This document shows, piece by piece, positions 48,464-55,356 of a DNA stretch of 64,000 nt (position 1 is its first letter; each line of letters starts with the position of its first letter). The notes below the pieces were generated by a model. It did not search any database and was not told the DNA's origin. It saw only the letters and a program-made list of their open reading frames with translations. Source of the DNA: Bacteroidota bacterium (GTDB taxonomy: Bacteria > Bacteroidota > Bacteroidia > Flavobacteriales_D > Crocinitomicaceae); the NCBI GenBank assembly GCA_024280295.1, contig JAJRQK010000031.1, positions 1 through 64,000 on the forward strand, in the 5' to 3' direction. The translations under genes were made by a program, and so were the position numbers.

Positions 48464-48808
48464 TTACTCAAAGTTGTTTATGATTCTTTGCCTGTCTTCA
48501 CTTTGTTTATCATTCTTATGGAAAATCTCAACAAAGATTATTTTATCTTCTTCTTCGAAATGAGCATATATTAAACGTAAACCCGAATTAACCCCTCTCC
48601 CTTTCAAGGATCTACAAGCAATTTTCTTTACTTTTATTACACACGCTTCCAAATCTAAATTGTCAATACGAAAACTAAATGGAGGCCTCGCTTTAGGTTT
48701 CTTTTTTAAAATGGTTTTCACTTCAAATAAATCGTCATTGAGAGTTCTGTATTTTTTTAAGAGCTTTTTTAAATCTCCTTTAAATTCTGCTAATTCGTCA
48801 AAGGTCAT
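48464..48808 (-). CDS. RelE/ParE-like toxin of a Panacea toxin-antitoxin pair
   Basis: 114 residues. The C-terminal half (KKIACRSLKGRGVNSGLRLI, YAHFEEEDKIIFVEIFHKND) matches the RelE/ParE toxin fold, which in this family usually targets mRNA on the ribosome or gyrase. The start overlaps the antitoxin stop by four bases (ATGA), the usual arrangement in which the antitoxin comes first. The exact toxic target is unknown. Confidence 0.72.
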   Translation of the reverse strand: MTFDELAEFKGDLKKLLKKYRTLNDDLFEVKTILKKKPKARPPFSFRIDNLDLEACVIKVKKIACRSLKGRGVNSGLRLIYAHFEEEDKIIFVEIFHKNDKQSEDRQRIINNFE

Positions 48809-49608
48809 GCTTGCTCAATTTCATCACCATAATTTCTTACGGTATAAGGCGTTTCTCTGTAAAAAGCTAATTCATAGTTAATACCTTTACCTTCATCGGT
48901 AACTTCCCATGGTAAATCCTTGTGAGAATAATTACTTATTGCAGCCGCAGACCAATCACTCATTTGTTCAATAACCCTATCAAGAACTTCTGTTTCACTT
49001 GCTTTCAATTCTTTTAAATCTGCTTTCTCTAGTGGGAGGTAGCGCGTTTGAGGATAACCATGATATTCGGTTTTGATCCGTTTCAATGTTCCTTCCTCAA
49101 TCATTTGTTTGATGATTGTATTTAATTTTTGTGGAACAGGACCAAATGGCAATTTTCTATATTCTGCACCTGTTAAATGCTCTTCATATAACTCGTAATA
49201 ATTGAAATCCGAAAAATATAACAGCTTATAGAGAACTGTTTCTCCAACATTTGGTTTCCCTGCACATTTTTCTAAAATGTATAATAACACATTTTTGAAC
49301 TTATCAACCTTTAAATTAGGTACAGAAATACGTTCTTCATCTATGTTAGTACTCTTTTGTTTCTTATCATTAATTTCTGGATGGATCTTAAAATCGTCAG
49401 ACATAAAATCATCTAATGAGAATTCTAATTCCATCGCCAACATTTGTAATTCAATAATATTAACGCCCCTATTTCCTAATTCAATTTGAGCCAAAGATGG
49501 GCGAGAAAGATTAACATTCTTTGCCAAATCTTCTTGTGACAAACCCTTAATCTTTCGAAGCGCAGATATTCTCTGACCAATCTGTTTTTGTGATAATTTT
49601 GCTTTCAT
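48805..49608 (-). CDS. HTH-Panacea (DUF4065/SocA-like) antitoxin
   Basis: 267 residues. The N-terminal XRE-type helix-turn-helix (residues 8-62: RISALRKIKGLSQEDLAKNV, SRPSLAQIELG) is followed by a Panacea/DUF4065 domain (about 100-240: LLYILEKCAGKPNVGETVLY, KLLYFSDFNYYELYEEHLTG, YRKLPFGPVPQKLN). Panacea domains have been described as promiscuous antitoxin modules that neutralise unrelated toxins. The HTH should let it repress its own operon; an inverted repeat lies just upstream. It is first in the operon, toxin second. Confidence 0.82.
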   Translation of the reverse strand: MKAKLSQKQIGQRISALRKIKGLSQEDLAKNVNLSRPSLAQIELGNRGVNIIELQMLAMELEFSLDDFMSDDFKIHPEINDKKQKSTNIDEERISVPNLKVDKFKNVLLYILEKCAGKPNVGETVLYKLLYFSDFNYYELYEEHLTGAEYRKLPFGPVPQKLNTIIKQMIEEGTLKRIKTEYHGYPQTRYLPLEKADLKELKASETEVLDRVIEQMSDWSAAAISNYSHKDLPWEVTDEGKGINYELAFYRETPYTVRNYGDEIEQA

Positions 49609-49828: not shown

Positions 49829-51922
49829 ATGGCATCAACGGATACCAAATCGAATAAACAAACACTGAAGACGTCTAAAAAGACATTACTTGAGGCATTT
49901 CGCTTCATGTCAACTGCAAAAACGTTAGCTGAAAAATACGAGGAAAACAAGGAAGTTACTGCAAAGTATGTTCACGCAACATCTCGCGGTCATGAAGCTA
50001 TTCAAATTGCCTGTGGAATGCTACTGAAACCTCAAGATTGGGTTGCTCCTTATTATCGTGACGATAGTATTCTTCTCAGTATTGGAATGACTCCCTATGA
50101 GTTAATGCTACAAGTCTTCGCAAAAAAAGATGATCCATTTTCAGGCGGTCGGACTTATTACTGTCACCCATCTCTCAATCGAAATGACATGCCTAAGATT
50201 CCGCATCAATCCTCTGCGACAGGTATGCAAGCAATTCCAACTACTGGTGTTGCAATGGGGATTCAATACAAAGAAATTCAAGGATTAGCAGAAGACTTTA
50301 ACGGAGAAAATCCAGTTGTGGTTTGCTCCCTCGGAGATGCAAGTTGTACAGAAGGTGAAGTTTCTGAAGCTTTTCAGATGGCAGCTTTGAAGCAATATCC
50401 AATCGTTTATTTGGTGCAAGATAACGGCTGGGATATATCGGCTAAAGCTGAAGAAACCCGCGCTCAAGATATTACAAAATACGCTCAAGGGTTTAACGGA
50501 ATTGAGGTTCGAACAATAGATGGAAGTGATTTTGAAACATCTTACCAAACACTCGATGAAGTCTTTAAGATTGTGCGTAAAGAGCGAAGGCCATTCATAG
50601 TTCATGCAAAAGTTCCGTTGCTTGGTCATCACACTTCGGGTGTTCGAAAAGAATGGTATCGGGATGACTTGGAAGAAGCGACAAAAGATGATCCTTTTCC
50701 GAAACTTAAGGACTTGATGCGCTCTGCGGGAATAGGCGAAGTGGATTTGATCAATATCGAGGCAGAGGCTAAAAAGTTGGTGGATACAGATTATGACAAG
50801 GCACTGAACGCTGATGATCCAGACCCAACTTCGATTACAGATCATATTTTCGCACCAACACCCATTACAGAAGAATCTGGAGAAAGAGAACCAAAAGGAA
50901 AGAAAAAGACCGTCATGGTTGATTCTGCCTTATTTGCTGTTCGTGAATTAATGGAAAAACATCCTGAATCGCTTTTATATGGACAAGATGTTGGAGGTCG
51001 TTTAGGTGGCGTTTTCCGTGAAGCAGCAACGCTGGCACAAACATTTGGAGATGATCGTGTTTTCAATACACCAATTCAAGAAGCATTTATTATTGGTTCA
51101 ACTGTTGGTATGTCTGCCGTTGGATTGAAACCAATTGTAGAAGTACAATTCGCGGATTATATATGGCCAGGATTGAATCAACTATTCACTGAAGTGAGTC
51201 GTTCGTATTATCTGTCTAATGGGAAATGGCCGGTGAGTTGTATCATTAGAGTTCCAATTGGAGCGTATGGTTCAGGTGGACCTTATCACTCATCAAGTGT
51301 AGAATCAATACTGACAAATATTCGTGGGATTAAAGTCGCTTATCCATCTAATGGTGCCGATTTGAAAGGATTGATGAAGTCATCTTTTTATGACCCAAAT
51401 CCAGTTGTAATTCTTGAACACAAAGGATTGTACTGGTCGAAGATACCTGGAACAGAAGGTGCGATGTCAATCGAGCCAGACGAAGATTATGTTGTTCCAT
51501 TTGGAAAAGCACGAACTGTACTTGAAGCGAATCAAAAAGCTATTGATAGTGGTGAATCTTGTGCGATTGTAACTTATGGACGTGGAGTTCATTGGTCGCT
51601 TGAAGCTGTTCAAGAATTTGAAGGTCGTTGTGAAATCATTGATCTTCGAACGCTCAATCCATTAGATTATGACGCACTCAATGAAGCTGCACAAAAGCAT
51701 GGAAAAGTTCTACTCGTAACAGAAGAATCCATTGAATCGACGTTTACATTGGGCTTGGCGGGAAGAATTCAGCGCGATAATTTTGAAGCTCTTGATGCTC
51801 CAGTAGCAATAGTTGGATCAGTTGATACTCCTGCAATTCCATTGAATTCAATTTTGGAAGCAGAATTATTGCCAAATGCTGATAAAGTTAAAGATGCGCT
51901 AAGTAATTTGCTCGATTATTAG
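49829..51922 (+). CDS. 2-oxoacid dehydrogenase E1 component, fused alpha and beta subunits
   Basis: 697 residues. The first half is an E1-alpha domain with the thiamine-diphosphate motif (CSLGDASCTEGEVSEAFQMA to VQDNGWDIS), the second half an E1-beta domain (GQDVGGRLGGVFREAATLAQ, VEVQFADYIWPGLNQLF, ILRTI-type end). This alpha-beta fusion is common in Bacteroidota and is usually annotated as branched-chain 2-oxoacid dehydrogenase. It decarboxylates a 2-oxoacid and passes the acyl group to a lipoyl E2, which is not in the window. The stop is at the very edge of intergenic repeat copy B. Confidence 0.9.
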   Translation: MASTDTKSNKQTLKTSKKTLLEAFRFMSTAKTLAEKYEENKEVTAKYVHATSRGHEAIQIACGMLLKPQDWVAPYYRDDSILLSIGMTPYELMLQVFAKKDDPFSGGRTYYCHPSLNRNDMPKIPHQSSATGMQAIPTTGVAMGIQYKEIQGLAEDFNGENPVVVCSLGDASCTEGEVSEAFQMAALKQYPIVYLVQDNGWDISAKAEETRAQDITKYAQGFNGIEVRTIDGSDFETSYQTLDEVFKIVRKERRPFIVHAKVPLLGHHTSGVRKEWYRDDLEEATKDDPFPKLKDLMRSAGIGEVDLINIEAEAKKLVDTDYDKALNADDPDPTSITDHIFAPTPITEESGEREPKGKKKTVMVDSALFAVRELMEKHPESLLYGQDVGGRLGGVFREAATLAQTFGDDRVFNTPIQEAFIIGSTVGMSAVGLKPIVEVQFADYIWPGLNQLFTEVSRSYYLSNGKWPVSCIIRVPIGAYGSGGPYHSSSVESILTNIRGIKVAYPSNGADLKGLMKSSFYDPNPVVILEHKGLYWSKIPGTEGAMSIEPDEDYVVPFGKARTVLEANQKAIDSGESCAIVTYGRGVHWSLEAVQEFEGRCEIIDLRTLNPLDYDALNEAAQKHGKVLLVTEESIESTFTLGLAGRIQRDNFEALDAPVAIVGSVDTPAIPLNSILEAELLPNADKVKDALSNLLDY

Positions 51923-52035
51923 GGCGTTTTAACAGGCTTTACGCTGTATCTTTTAATCATATAATCGCATACTTCGACTGCGCTCGGCATCCCATTTTAT
52001 GATTAAAAGGATGTCGCTCCTATCCTTAACGCGGG
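51921..52035 (-). repeat. Dispersed structured intergenic element, copy B
   Basis: On the minus strand: GCGTTAAGGATAGGAG, CATCCTTTTAATCAT, spacer with GAGCGCAGTCGAAG, ATGATTAAAAGATACAG, then AACGCCC. The arms AATCAT/ATGATT and outer GCGTT/AACGC are complementary. It begins at the stop codon of the E1 gene. Confidence 0.65.
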
Positions 52036-52071
52036 TTTCGCTAGTTAACACACTCATTAATAATTGATTGT

Positions 52072-52137
52072 CATCCATCAGCCCATCTACTGTCCAATGT
52101 GCACTATCATCCCTTAGCGGTAAGTCATCAAGATCTA
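52072..52137 (-). repeat. 66-bp direct repeat R1: displaced copy of the DoxX-like gene 3' end
   Basis: 60 of 66 bases match 53274-53339. On the minus strand it encodes DLDDLPLRDDSAHWTVDGLM, the C-terminus of the gene at 53266-54456, with Thr to Ser and Asn to Asp changes and four silent differences. The last ten bases overlap the 3' end of the fic gene, whose stop codon is formed inside the repeat. It lies immediately 3' of fic. Confidence 0.9.
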
Positions 52138-52718
52138 GCAAATTCGATGAGAGACTTGAAATCATTACAATCTGCTTGTCTCAATGAATTTATATACTTG
52201 CTGCGAACATCGCTTGATGCCGTTCGTCTACCCCACGAAAAGACCTCTCTTCCGAAGAGATTCTGAACCAATACATCAGCCATCAATCGACTATGTCTAC
52301 CATTTCCATTTGGAAAACAATGAATACAAACTAATCGATGTTTGAATCTTATCACAATTTCATCTGCTTCAAAACTCTCTTGTTCAACCCAAAAAAGCAC
52401 ATCATCAAACATTTTTTGCAATTCAGTTGGTATATTCCATTTATCAACACCTATATTTTTATTTGTCCGTCGAAAACTCCCCGCCCAGTCCCAGACCTCA
52501 CCAAACATCAGCTTATGTAATTTTTTCACAAATGATTCTGTTAGCAATTGTACAGAAGAAAGTTTTTTCGTCAGCGTCCAAAGAATCGCTTGTTCAATAT
52601 TTTTCTGCTCAAATTCATCCAGCTCACTTTGTACTAAGATTGTTTGAATTTTCAAGCCATTCTTTTCATCCTCATCCAACGGAGTCTGCCCAGGAAGATA
52701 ATTAAACACTAAGCCCAT
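52128..52718 (-). CDS. Fic domain protein, mobile mystery protein B type
   Basis: 196 residues. A Fic core with HCFPNGNGRHSR around residues 133-144: the catalytic His and GNGRxxR are present, while the usual Asp/Glu before GNGR is Asn, which is normal in this subfamily. GQTPLDEDEKNGL at the N-terminus, FGEVWDWAGSFRRTNKNIGV and the C-terminal ending SLIEFARS match 'mobile mystery protein B' as I remember it. Fic proteins modify targets with AMP or another nucleotide group. Its start overlaps the upstream HTH gene by ten bases, and its stop lies in repeat R1. Confidence 0.9.
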   Translation of the reverse strand: MGLVFNYLPGQTPLDEDEKNGLKIQTILVQSELDEFEQKNIEQAILWTLTKKLSSVQLLTESFVKKLHKLMFGEVWDWAGSFRRTNKNIGVDKWNIPTELQKMFDDVLFWVEQESFEADEIVIRFKHRLVCIHCFPNGNGRHSRLMADVLVQNLFGREVFSWGRRTASSDVRSKYINSLRQADCNDFKSLIEFARS

Positions 52719-53167
52719 AGTGCTTTCGGAAGTTGATTGATTAATTCTATTGTTCGCTCATTAATCGCATTTTCTATTCTTTCTTTGGAGTTTTCCTGCC
52801 CTTCAAGCTTCATGGTCCAAGATGTACGCATGACTATCTCAGTCGCTAGTCTCCTAGCCTTCCTTTCTATGAGTTGATCTAACCCTTGATCCTTTGGCAA
52901 AAAGCCGTACACTAAAGTCATATCTAAAGCTTCAGCCGCTTCTTCAAGGGAACGTAATGTTATTGAACCTTTCGACTCTCGTTGCTCTAAACTTCTCACA
53001 CTCTGTTTAGTAATTCCTAGTTTAGTTCCTAGCTGCTCCAAAGACATTCCAAAAGAACGACGAATGGACTTCACCCATCCAGATTCGGGATTCGTAACAT
53101 TTCGAAGTGATTCAAAAGGTTTCATCCTGTTATTCAACTGATCAATATGAAGTTTTTGTGTGTTCAT
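52709..53167 (-). CDS. HTH protein, mobile mystery protein A type
   Basis: 152 residues. An XRE-type helix-turn-helix around residues 37-75 (RRSFGMSLEQLGTKLGITKQ, SVRSLEQRESKGSITLRSLE) and a helical C-terminus ending in LINQLPKALWA. The family is always found before a mobile mystery protein B (Fic) gene; the two overlap here by ten bases, like an addiction module. It probably represses its own promoter: four TAATACT repeats lie just upstream (53178-53238). The function of the pair has not been established. Confidence 0.9.
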   Translation of the reverse strand: MNTQKLHIDQLNNRMKPFESLRNVTNPESGWVKSIRRSFGMSLEQLGTKLGITKQSVRSLEQRESKGSITLRSLEEAAEALDMTLVYGFLPKDQGLDQLIERKARRLATEIVMRTSWTMKLEGQENSKERIENAINERTIELINQLPKALWA

Positions 53168-53177
53168 AATATAAATA

Positions 53178-53242
53178 TAATACTTAATATTACATTTACA
53201 CTATTTTAGTAATACTATAATAATACTATAATAATACTTTTT
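53178..53242. promoter_or_regulatory. TAATACT repeats upstream of the HTH-Fic operon
   Basis: TAATACT occurs at 53178, 53210, 53221 and 53232. The last three start 11 bases apart, giving two full TAATACTATAA units (53210-53220 and 53221-53231) and a truncated third (TAATACT, 53232-53238). This is one helical turn per repeat, as expected for cooperative binding of an HTH repressor, here probably the mobile mystery protein A product. Confidence 0.45.
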
Positions 53243-53265
53243 TTACTATTAATCTAAATATATCA

Positions 53266-54456
53266 TTAATGAGCATTCATCAACCCATCTACTGTCCAAT
53301 GAGCAGTATCATCTCTTAGTGGTAAGTCATCAAGATCTAACTTGAGAGTTTCCAAACTTTTAATTACCCCATTATCACTCCATGTGAATGCAATCAGATT
53401 TTTTCGATTTTCAACAAACAATTGAAGATCAACATCCTCAAATTTAATCGAACGGGATGACTCAGATATTCGAATACTGTAATCCTTAAAATTACCATCA
53501 ACTGACTCTATGATGAAATAACCCTTTGAATGAATGTGAATTCGTCTTATGGTTGAGTCTCCTAAAAACGCAGCATCTTGATTTTCCACTTGATAACTGC
53601 CATAATAAGGGATAGCACCATAATCAATACCAGAAAAACTTCCTTGATCAATATAAGGCGAGAGTAATTCTAGTGCGAAAACAAAAATAATTCCACCTTT
53701 TAATGCACGCTTTAAAATTGGTTTCAAATTCAAGGTAAGTTCTTGCACTTCAGTCGATTTACCATTTGTGAAAAAGATTCCAATAAGAAAGTTGTACCAA
53801 GGATAAAGAACAAAAGCAGCAAGTAAAACCAAATAGAGCGACAGCATTTTGACTGTAATATCAAATCCGACATTTATTGCGAAAACATTTATCAACACTC
53901 CAAGACCTATCAATGCGCCAAATAATCGGGTTCGTTTCCAGAGTAACAAAAGTCCTGGGAGAACTTCGATAAAGCCCATGAATGTATTGTAACTCGAACT
54001 TGATCCCATTGTGGACCAAAATAAAATATCCTTCGTCAATCCACCAACTGGTGTGAAAAGAGTGTTCGGTTCTGGTTGATAGAATTGAAAGTGAAACAAT
54101 TTATCAAAACCATATTTCAGGAGGAAAAATGCGAGAATGTATGTGCAAGATCTGTGGAGAAAGAGTTGAATTTGAACAGCGCTTAATTTTGATTGTGTCC
54201 GTGCAATAAAGGCCAAAATTAAAGCAGCAAAAGCTAACACCAACATTTGAATATAAAGCGTGGCAGCATCTGATGTTGTTGCCTTTGCTACCAATTCTAA
54301 ATCAAAAATAGATTCACCCAACCATTTGGCTAACGGATAAAATGATTCTGTGATCCAAACACCAGGATGAGGAATTGTGCTAAAATTAAAAGGCAAACTC
54401 ACTGTAAAAAGGAGCATCCAAAATCCTAGTGTATATTTAACAAGTTCCTTCACCAA
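53266..54456 (-). CDS. DoxX-like polytopic membrane protein
   Basis: 396 residues with about seven hydrophobic helices in the first 260 residues, with DoxX-like features (KYGFDKLFHFQFY, GFIEVLPGLLLLWKRTRLFG), then an extracytoplasmic domain of about 140 residues (SFSGIDYGAIPYYGSYQVEN). The C-terminus DLDDLPLRDDTAHWTVDGLM is the source sequence of both direct repeats: the 3' end lies in repeat R2 and a copy (R1) sits beyond fic. It is the third gene of an operon with two exported paralogues. Function unknown; DoxX family members are linked to quinone or redox partners. Confidence 0.72.
   Translation of the reverse strand: MVKELVKYTLGFWMLLFTVSLPFNFSTIPHPGVWITESFYPLAKWLGESIFDLELVAKATTSDAATLYIQMLVLAFAALILAFIARTQSKLSAVQIQLFLHRSCTYILAFFLLKYGFDKLFHFQFYQPEPNTLFTPVGGLTKDILFWSTMGSSSSYNTFMGFIEVLPGLLLLWKRTRLFGALIGLGVLINVFAINVGFDITVKMLSLYLVLLAAFVLYPWYNFLIGIFFTNGKSTEVQELTLNLKPILKRALKGGIIFVFALELLSPYIDQGSFSGIDYGAIPYYGSYQVENQDAAFLGDSTIRRIHIHSKGYFIIESVDGNFKDYSIRISESSRSIKFEDVDLQLFVENRKNLIAFTWSDNGVIKSLETLKLDLDDLPLRDDTAHWTVDGLMNAH
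53274..53339 (-). repeat. 66-bp direct repeat R2: 3' end of the DoxX-like gene
   Basis: Same sequence as R1 at 52072-52137 with six differences, in the same orientation. It is inside the coding sequence and ends five bases before the stop codon. R1 and R2 bracket the HTH-Fic pair; about 1.2 kb separates the two copies. Confidence 0.9.
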
Positions 54457-54475: not shown

Positions 54476-54895
54476 CTAATTCTTTCTTGATTGTAATTTC
54501 GGGAAAATAAGATAGATCAGATAGGAAAGTCCGATAAGCGCAATAAACCAAGGCATGCTGTTTTGTTTGTCCAATCTTTTCTTTTCAGACTTTGAGAAAC
54601 CCACAAAAACAACGTAACTAGGATAAAGTTCTTTTAGCTTTTTGAGGTCATAATCATTCTCAACAAATACTGGATGATCACAAAACGTATCGCGACCATG
54701 CCAATTTGCGTCTTCAATAATACAACCATTTCCAATATAGATGATGCTATCAATACTCCTCGAAGGCAGTCCGTAATTATCATTTTCAGTTGAAAATTCT
54801 GAACTTGAATGACTACGCGCAGCAATAATATCAGTTTGAGCGGTAGTTGACCCGGCGGTAATAAACAATAGGGCGAAAAGCGTTTGTTTTATCAT
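54476..54895 (-). CDS. Exported, C-terminally anchored protein of unknown function, paralogue 2
   Basis: 139 residues. Signal peptide MIKQTLFALLFITAGSTTAQ, a periplasmic domain with TDIIAARSHSSSEF, IIYIGNGCIIEDANW and YVVFVGFSKSEKKR, and one C-terminal membrane helix (WFIALIGLSYLIYLIFPKL). Closely resembles the neighbouring 154-residue protein. No known family. It overlaps that gene by four bases (ATGA) and precedes the DoxX-like gene. Confidence 0.7.
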   Translation of the reverse strand: MIKQTLFALLFITAGSTTAQTDIIAARSHSSSEFSTENDNYGLPSRSIDSIIYIGNGCIIEDANWHGRDTFCDHPVFVENDYDLKKLKELYPSYVVFVGFSKSEKKRLDKQNSMPWFIALIGLSYLIYLIFPKLQSRKN

Positions 54896-55356
54896 GATTT
54901 TACTTTTTTAGCAGTTAATTTCGGGAAAAATATATAACTGGTATACCCTATTAATGATATAGCAACATACCAAGGAATATTTGAATCATCCGTTCTACGA
55001 GAAGTCTTCTTCTCCTTTTTATATTTATCGAAGCCAACAAATTTGACGCTGTTTGGGAAATACTCCTTAATTCGCTTCACATTATAATCAAGTTCTATAA
55101 ACAGTGGGTTGTGACATGAAGTATCCCTAATAATTCCATCACCGTAATACCATTCTTTTGACTCAATGATACATCCATTTCCAATATATTCTATCTTTTT
55201 CAGTTCAGAAGATGGCTCATCTATTCCAAAATTCCCACGATCCAAAGTAACAGAAGAATGAATCTCTCTTGCATGACTTCTGGTTGAAATAATATCAGTT
55301 TGACCAGAAACAAATAGGCCAAGAGTGATCGCCCCAAAGGAAAGAAGTAGTTTCAT
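54892..55356 (-). CDS. Exported, C-terminally anchored protein of unknown function, paralogue 1
   Basis: 154 residues. Signal peptide MKLLLSFGAITLGLFVSGQ, then TDIISTRSHAREIHS, IEYIGNGCIIESKEW, VKFVGFDKYKKEKKT and a terminal membrane helix (WYVAISLIGYTSYIFFPKL). It is the first gene of a minus-strand operon with paralogue 2 and the DoxX-like gene. The shared TDII-xxRSH and IGNGCIIE motifs define a small family I cannot name. The upstream gap (55357-55623) holds intergenic repeat copy C. Confidence 0.7.
   Translation of the reverse strand: MKLLLSFGAITLGLFVSGQTDIISTRSHAREIHSSVTLDRGNFGIDEPSSELKKIEYIGNGCIIESKEWYYGDGIIRDTSCHNPLFIELDYNVKRIKEYFPNSVKFVGFDKYKKEKKTSRRTDDSNIPWYVAISLIGYTSYIFFPKLTAKKVKS

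Follow-up and report, generated by a model that had tools for sequence, protein, structure and literature searches.

We analysed the first 64,000 nucleotides of contig JAJRQK010000031.1 (assembly GCA_024280295.1), which belong to a Bacteroidota bacterium of the Crocinitomicaceae and are called the window throughout. In this stretch, the genes of mobile mystery proteins A (mmA, helix-turn-helix (HTH)) and B (mmB, Fic) lie between two direct repeats of 66 bp, R1 and R2, which both correspond to the 3′ end of a DoxX-like gene (Table 1). A reading made from the letters without database searches, hereafter the sequence-only reading, had proposed the repeats and the family membership of the pair. 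Both are borne out: R1 and R2 are identical at 60 of 66 positions (E ~5e-23 in a comparison of the 800-bp flanks; 86% over a 78-bp alignment), and both proteins score above their NCBIfam cut-offs. Recounting the six differences gave the same result as before, i.e., four silent and two conservative changes (T/S and N/D), three of the six lying at third codon positions. Between the repeats, open reading frames (ORFs) of at least 60 amino acids amount to the pair itself, whose two ORFs are adjacent with a 10-bp overlap, and to frames overlapping the pair or R1, and nothing else.

Table 1. Features of the window locus, with positions counted from the first nucleotide of the window
Feature	Positions	Strand	Remarks
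R2, copy upstream of the pair	53274..53339	-	functional 3′ end of the DoxX-like gene; 60/66 identical to R1
R1, copy downstream of the pair	52072..52137	-	displaced DoxX tail past mmB, possibly the original native tail
mmB, mobile mystery protein B, Fic domain	52128..52718	-	TIGR02613, 231.6 bits (cut-off 124.4); PF02661
mmA, mobile mystery protein A, HTH	52709..53167	-	TIGR02612, 144.8 bits (cut-off 122.6); PF01381
Leader of the inserted unit, DoxX stop to mmA	53168..53265	-	left end of related units at a median of 148 bp ahead of mmA
10-bp overlap TAGATCTTGA, right joint	52128..52137	-	last codons and stop of mmB, also start of R1
DoxX-like gene, target	53266..54456	-	R2 lies at the end of this ORF
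Pyruvate dehydrogenase E1-type gene, native right neighbour	49829..51922	+	from family searches and the gene order of relatives

The DoxX tail begins with the last ten bases of mmB (TAGATCTTGA). The stop codon of the Fic gene had been thought to be created within R1. However, mmB ends in the consensus FARS at the same column as 11 of 13 aligned sequences (the one of the window counted), hence at its usual place, and the junction consists of the 10-bp overlap, which we read as a microhomology joint.

The DoxX-like gene owes its name to the sequence-only reading and has no Pfam or NCBIfam match at 0.001. Of 150 family genomes, 80 have a match to it, the genome of the window included. Searching the whole genome with positions 52000-53400 gave, at E<=0.001, four other matches of 27-31 bp, all outside R1 and R2; at this threshold the 66-bp tail is thus not a dispersed repeat of the genome. 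The four places match pieces of a stretch between the pyruvate-dehydrogenase gene and R1 (51926-52046, minus strand) that scores as an Rfam Flavo-1 RNA (RF01705; 42.6 bits against a gathering threshold of 42). No tRNA or tmRNA that could have served as target lies in the window.

Two more gene groups lie near the locus. An HTH gene with a SocA/Panacea domain and a following small gene, overlapping by 4 bp (48464-49608, minus strand), are a further candidate toxin-antitoxin pair, at a distance of 2.5 kb from the HTH-Fic pair. On the other side, two adjoining related small genes (54476-55356, minus strand; proteins ~40% identical) stand beside the DoxX-like gene, as do their relatives in other genomes.

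Empty sites, unit borders and recurrence of the footprint

The comparison with relatives identifies the pair as an insertion. In 12 of the 29 relatives' loci examined, the DoxX-like gene directly adjoins the same pyruvate-dehydrogenase gene and the pair is missing; the stretches examined for the other 17 do not show the dehydrogenase gene. The aligned gene ends are 20-95 bp apart in the four relatives of the same genus, against 1,343 bp in the window, and the tail aligns as a single copy in 11 of the 12 empty sites. Hence, the adjacency of the two genes is old and the pair came later. This is the empty site that the sequence-only reading had predicted, with the DoxX-like gene meeting the region past R1 in the absence of HTH-Fic, and its picture of an insertion at a gene 3′ end with no integrase between the repeats agrees with these sites and with the content of the interval. 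None of the 29 relatives has a match to mmA or mmB (at 0.01) or a second tail match, so that the arrangement named in advance as counter-evidence, two tails without the pair, does not occur among them. Similar empty sites with one matched copy exist for two other loci of our survey (designated by L numbers): in 2 of 4 relatives for L106, and in 6 of 9 for L099, where two more relatives have the neighbours adjacent and the repeat not aligning. L103, with matches on the side of the downstream gene alone, was left out of this count.

The borders of the inserted unit are sharp. Among 1,867 alignments spanning the genes between loci, a single one continues for over 400 bp on the left side or 300 bp on the right side, and in the 62 alignments of at least 80% identity the median right end lies 8 bp past the mmB stop and the median left end 148 bp ahead of mmA. 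Of 7,875 pairs of loci, 10 have a homologous neighbour in common and 2 have both. These borders and unshared neighbours define a unit of ~1.2 kb found nearly always at different sites, with no room for a mobility enzyme: the moving part is the pair itself, i.e., the leader, mmA and mmB, closing at the mmB stop. The same 66-bp tail had been expected to turn up beside other mobile mystery pairs; neither R1 nor R2 has a match in the 125 remaining distinct pair loci (E<=1e-3), so that there is no common tail.

We then asked how often such pairs are flanked by direct repeats. Above cut-off, mmB is present in 17 of 150 family genomes and in 36 of 392 phylum genomes, the genome of the window being counted in both. 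The scan of genome contigs gave at least 535 confirmed stretches, of which the best 80 were kept. Five duplicates and L108, in which no mmA was found, were dropped from the pair set, and 119 of the 126 distinct pairs, the one of the window included, could be tested, the other seven having less than 250 bp of flank. A direct repeat spans the pair in 33 of 119 cases at 1e-3 and in 27 of 119 at 1e-10; the corresponding numbers among 627 control intervals are 24 and 11 (Fisher p 5.5e-15 at E<=1e-10, to be read knowing that the controls, three draws per zone from the same loci, are not independent and that their 11 matches come from seven loci). Thus, the footprint is general across mobile mystery pairs and concerns about one in five of the pairs examined; the majority (86 of 119) have no repeat at 1e-3. 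Of the 27 loci, 23 are not integron-like and 4 are integron-like by label, and two (L138 and L148) are repeat-rich. Widening the flanks to 3 kb (95 loci) gave a repeat at 1e-6 in 21 non-integron loci, and this repeat is tight to the pair in 19 of them; tight repeats occur in 2 of 198 controls (1.5-kb flanks). Repeat lengths at 1e-6 go from 25 to 663 bp, and the longest identical repeat measures 25 bp. Many of the surveyed loci come from metagenome assemblies, but the titles of L194, L199, L213, L218 and L221 designate strains and not MAGs.

In the non-integron class, the repeat often coincides with the border of an adjacent gene: the upstream gene's 3′ end at the window, L099, L135 and L170, the 3′ end of a convergent downstream gene at L176, L194, L213 and L221, and a 5′ gene edge at L103 and L106. 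The insertion is therefore not peculiar to gene 3′ ends, contrary to what the sequence-only reading had implied. At the remaining non-integron loci, no ORF of at least 100 amino acids overlaps the repeat, or the overlap is of another or doubtful kind. At L121 (genome G455, genus g83, with Chlorobium ferrooxidans), the pair sits inside the second copy of an adjacent gene, next to a fuller copy that has a premature stop; the duplications at L121 and L194 are larger or more complex.

A minority of the pairs are framed otherwise. End motifs that we take to be those of attC sites are found on both sides of 11 of the 126 pairs, and not at the window. The integron-like label rests on these motifs at the 11 loci and on our reading of the ends for L123, L195, L196 and L204. 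In Lutimonas halocynthiae, three repeats of ~118 bp come after an integrase-like gene near a contig end (L341, 7247-10338), probably a chromosomal integron, and a relative of this repeat (81%) lies directly behind mmB at L192 in the same genome. Integrase and repeats were seen together in this one genome, the other integron-like loci being labelled from their ends alone. Used as a probe, the Lutimonas repeat missed the window and 18 more loci, which says little since it also missed the other 13 of 14 integron-like loci. The integron-integrase model TIGR02249 does not separate the two classes either, 21 of 23 genomes matching at 1e-20 and none above cut-off.

Origin of the extra tail and route of insertion

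In a local duplicate that has become a dead fragment, changes should mostly ignore the reading frame. Over 12 coding repeats, 104 of 163 differences fall at third codon positions (p 2e-15 if one third is expected there, 3e-4 if one half is). These cases were picked by hand, loci without an overlapping ORF being unusable, and the sum excludes L182 (integron-like), L103 (25 bp), L154 and L209 (doubtful ORFs), as well as the second repeat of L121 (14 of 23 at third positions). The excess indicates that the copies mostly diverged as working genes, and the extra tail probably arrived with the pair. L121 points in the same direction: among 24 relatives, both states are found at 47 of the 61 differing sites, 9 states of 663 are private to the extra copy, these relatives themselves having 2-30, and the fuller copy stands at 92.6% to another species against 90.8% to the neighbouring copy. 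At the differing sites of L099, one sister species favours the upstream copy 9:4 and another the far copy 13:9. We conclude that the extra tail is probably foreign, at least often. That one tail copy came from a homologous gene under selection, as the sequence-only reading had suggested, is in this way supported by the other loci more than by the window. As for the window, R1 keeps a serine also found there in the tails of L007, L008, L009 and L010, a one-residue hint that R1 may be the native copy and R2 the newcomer.

Our preferred reading, which we hold with about even confidence, is that the pair is a compact, horizontally moving unit, with one end anchored by tail homology and the other by microhomology. 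In the order of events that we infer, the pair would have entered by transformation, on the DNA of a related bacterium and joined to that donor's version of the DoxX tail. On the left side, recombination with the resident gene through tail homology would have left this gene ending in the donor tail (R2); on the right side, the DNA just past mmB would have been joined to the resident gene by the 10-bp microhomology upstream of the native tail, and the latter would have been displaced to the far side (R1). The DoxX-like gene and its neighbour would so remain intact, and nothing essential would be lost. The joining itself could be homology-facilitated illegitimate recombination or a replication template switch, and toxin-antitoxin action would ensure the retention of the pair.

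Several observations weigh against this reading. Three of the coding repeats show no third-position excess (L155, 2 of 10; L190, 2 of 5; L221, 4 of 8), the three of six differences at the window decide nothing alone, and a first codon sum over 13 cases, of which two were later dropped, with L121 absent and a longer stretch of the window, gave 70 of 118. The presence of both states at third positions can also come from repeated change. We recognised a clear microhomology at the window locus alone. The start of the far copy lies no more than 30 bp from the mmB stop in 14 of the 19 tight cases. More scatter would be expected of a purely random illegitimate joint, and a fixed circular form or a specific enzyme would account better for these starts. 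No donor genome carrying the pair at a DoxX-like gene was seen, both neighbours being shared by just the 2 of 7,875 locus pairs mentioned above. Finally, ComEC-type PF03772 matches in 4 of 5 genomes, the one of the window included, but also in 10 of 14 control genomes, and is thus weak support for transformation.

Among the other explanations, an insertion with true long target duplication, in which a hypothetical enzyme inserts the unit and duplicates the resident target, the copies then drifting apart, is possible, though we judge it unlikely. It fits the empty sites and the sharp unit ends, and the same footprint, long variable repeats of ~100 bp around a compact addiction-type unit, is described in PMC3874152. 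Against it, the differences obey coding constraint in most coding cases even though one copy is a fragment, and the extra copy of L121 is not decaying. Identical repeats longer than 25 bp are missing as well, though short-read assembly may lose identical ones.

The closeness of the tail to the mmB stop would also be explained by a circle: recombination between the repeats would excise the unit with one tail, and one crossover in the corresponding tail of a relative would insert the circle there. Such a circle would account for tails on both sides and for their foreign divergence, and L121, where a fuller gene copy precedes a second one that the pair interrupts, resembles its product. But it predicts the same target gene across species, in conflict with the scarcity of locus pairs sharing both neighbours, and at L106 the far copy looks native and not hybrid (few sites). 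We regard it as rather unlikely.

An old local tandem duplication, comprising the gene end or more, into which the pair came by chance seems improbable to us: local duplications are common and those of L121 and L194 are larger or more complex, but the repeats are tight in 19 of the 21 non-integron loci that have them and in just 2 of 198 controls, and no relative with two tails and no pair exists among the 29 of the window or those of L106 and L099. That the window repeats are attC sites of an integron cassette, a likely situation for the minority with attC-like ends on both sides and for the Lutimonas halocynthiae mmB flank, is very improbable and was rejected here, as the window repeat is coding, has no attC-like ends and folds weakly, the silence of the Lutimonas probe being a weak point given its failures elsewhere.

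Toxin-antitoxin modules and comparison with known systems

The pair is likely a toxin-antitoxin module. By sequence, the nearest solved structures of mmB are FICD and NmFic. In mmA, [ST]xxxE[GN], which we take to be the Fic-inhibiting motif of class I Fic antitoxins, is strictly present in 16 of 120 sequences, and the Met, Leu, Glu and Gln of an MxLExQ stretch at this place are invariant in all 120; the stretch resembles the inhibiting motif without strictly meeting it. Carriage by phages was rejected, with no mmB match in 50,697 phage records at 1e-15. Among plasmids, mmB is present in 233 of 72,556 records at 1e-20, mostly rhizobial. The pair of pTiC58 has no flanking direct repeat at 0.01, and in 23 of the 60 records listed (of 646 matching) the pTiC58 neighbours span ~1.5-1.8 kb end to end, too short to hold the pair; hence, not every insertion leaves repeats. 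On this Ti plasmid (L338, 3510-5448), the 3′ terminal 40 bp of mmB also belong to the end of a convergent DUF3991/toprim gene.

HigB loci were used as a toxin-antitoxin control. Repeats were found in 8 of 38 intervals, at 5 of the 19 loci tested (22 fetched), so HigB is not a clean negative control, which weakens the claim that the footprint belongs to mobile mystery pairs only. Three of these loci (L328, L330 and L333), with several copies each, are probably attC arrays. At the two others (L335 and L336, 2 of 19), HigBA shows a footprint like that of the mobile mystery pairs; in L336, it lies between 205-bp repeats (938-1142 and 2185-2389; 95% identical) covering the 3′ end of the upstream ORF. 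The footprint may therefore concern small toxin-antitoxin modules in general. It is a doubtful but specific extension of our reading that such modules, mobile mystery and HigBA alike, would spread without transposase as a sharply bounded unit with a foreign gene edge as homology arm and a microhomology at the last stop; target genes would then be repaired while being invaded. The footprint recurs, has defined ends and empty sites and probably includes a foreign tail, and it makes the movement of mobile mystery genes and of many solitary toxin-antitoxin modules a testable question.

How does this footprint compare with known systems? The window proteins are full-length members of the mobile mystery families TIGR02612 and TIGR02613, which are defined by sequence and whose entries are silent on movement. 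A minority of the pairs probably travel as chromosomal integron cassettes, and the window locus does not. Islands driven by an integrase can restore the 3′ end of a gene. The analogy drawn with them by the sequence-only reading stands for the outcome, a replaced or hybrid gene end with the displaced tail on the far side, and fails for the parts, since here no integrase lies between the repeats, 5′ edges are also used and the repeats differ at each site.

In homology-facilitated illegitimate recombination, described from transformation experiments (PMC6382021), homology anchors one side and an identity of a few bp the other. The window, with tail homology at the left and its 10-bp joint at the right, is alike; the difference is that the event recurs here, each time with the borders of the same unit.

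Lastly, Nobusato (2000) and Furuta (2010) are said to have described insertion with long target duplication for restriction-modification genes. According to PMC3874152, PMC3031569 and PMC1643837, the insertion of these genes comes with target duplications that are variable and long, on the order of 100 bp. Both cases share a compact unit without transposase and of a supposedly addictive type, long variable repeats and a single-copy empty site, and repeats together with a one-copy empty site are found at the window, L106 and L099. A literature search covering few subscription papers, and judged from listings except for the papers cited here, gave no link between long target duplication and mobile mystery or toxin-antitoxin pairs. 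The unit differs in being HTH and Fic and not a restriction-modification system, and in its repeats, which mostly diverged as coding sequence and so suggest a foreign tail and not a plain duplication: as to whether the second copy duplicates the resident target, the codon pattern and L121 argue for a foreign origin, and three of the 12 coding repeats do not. The footprint described here may also be relevant to the duplications reported around restriction-modification genes.

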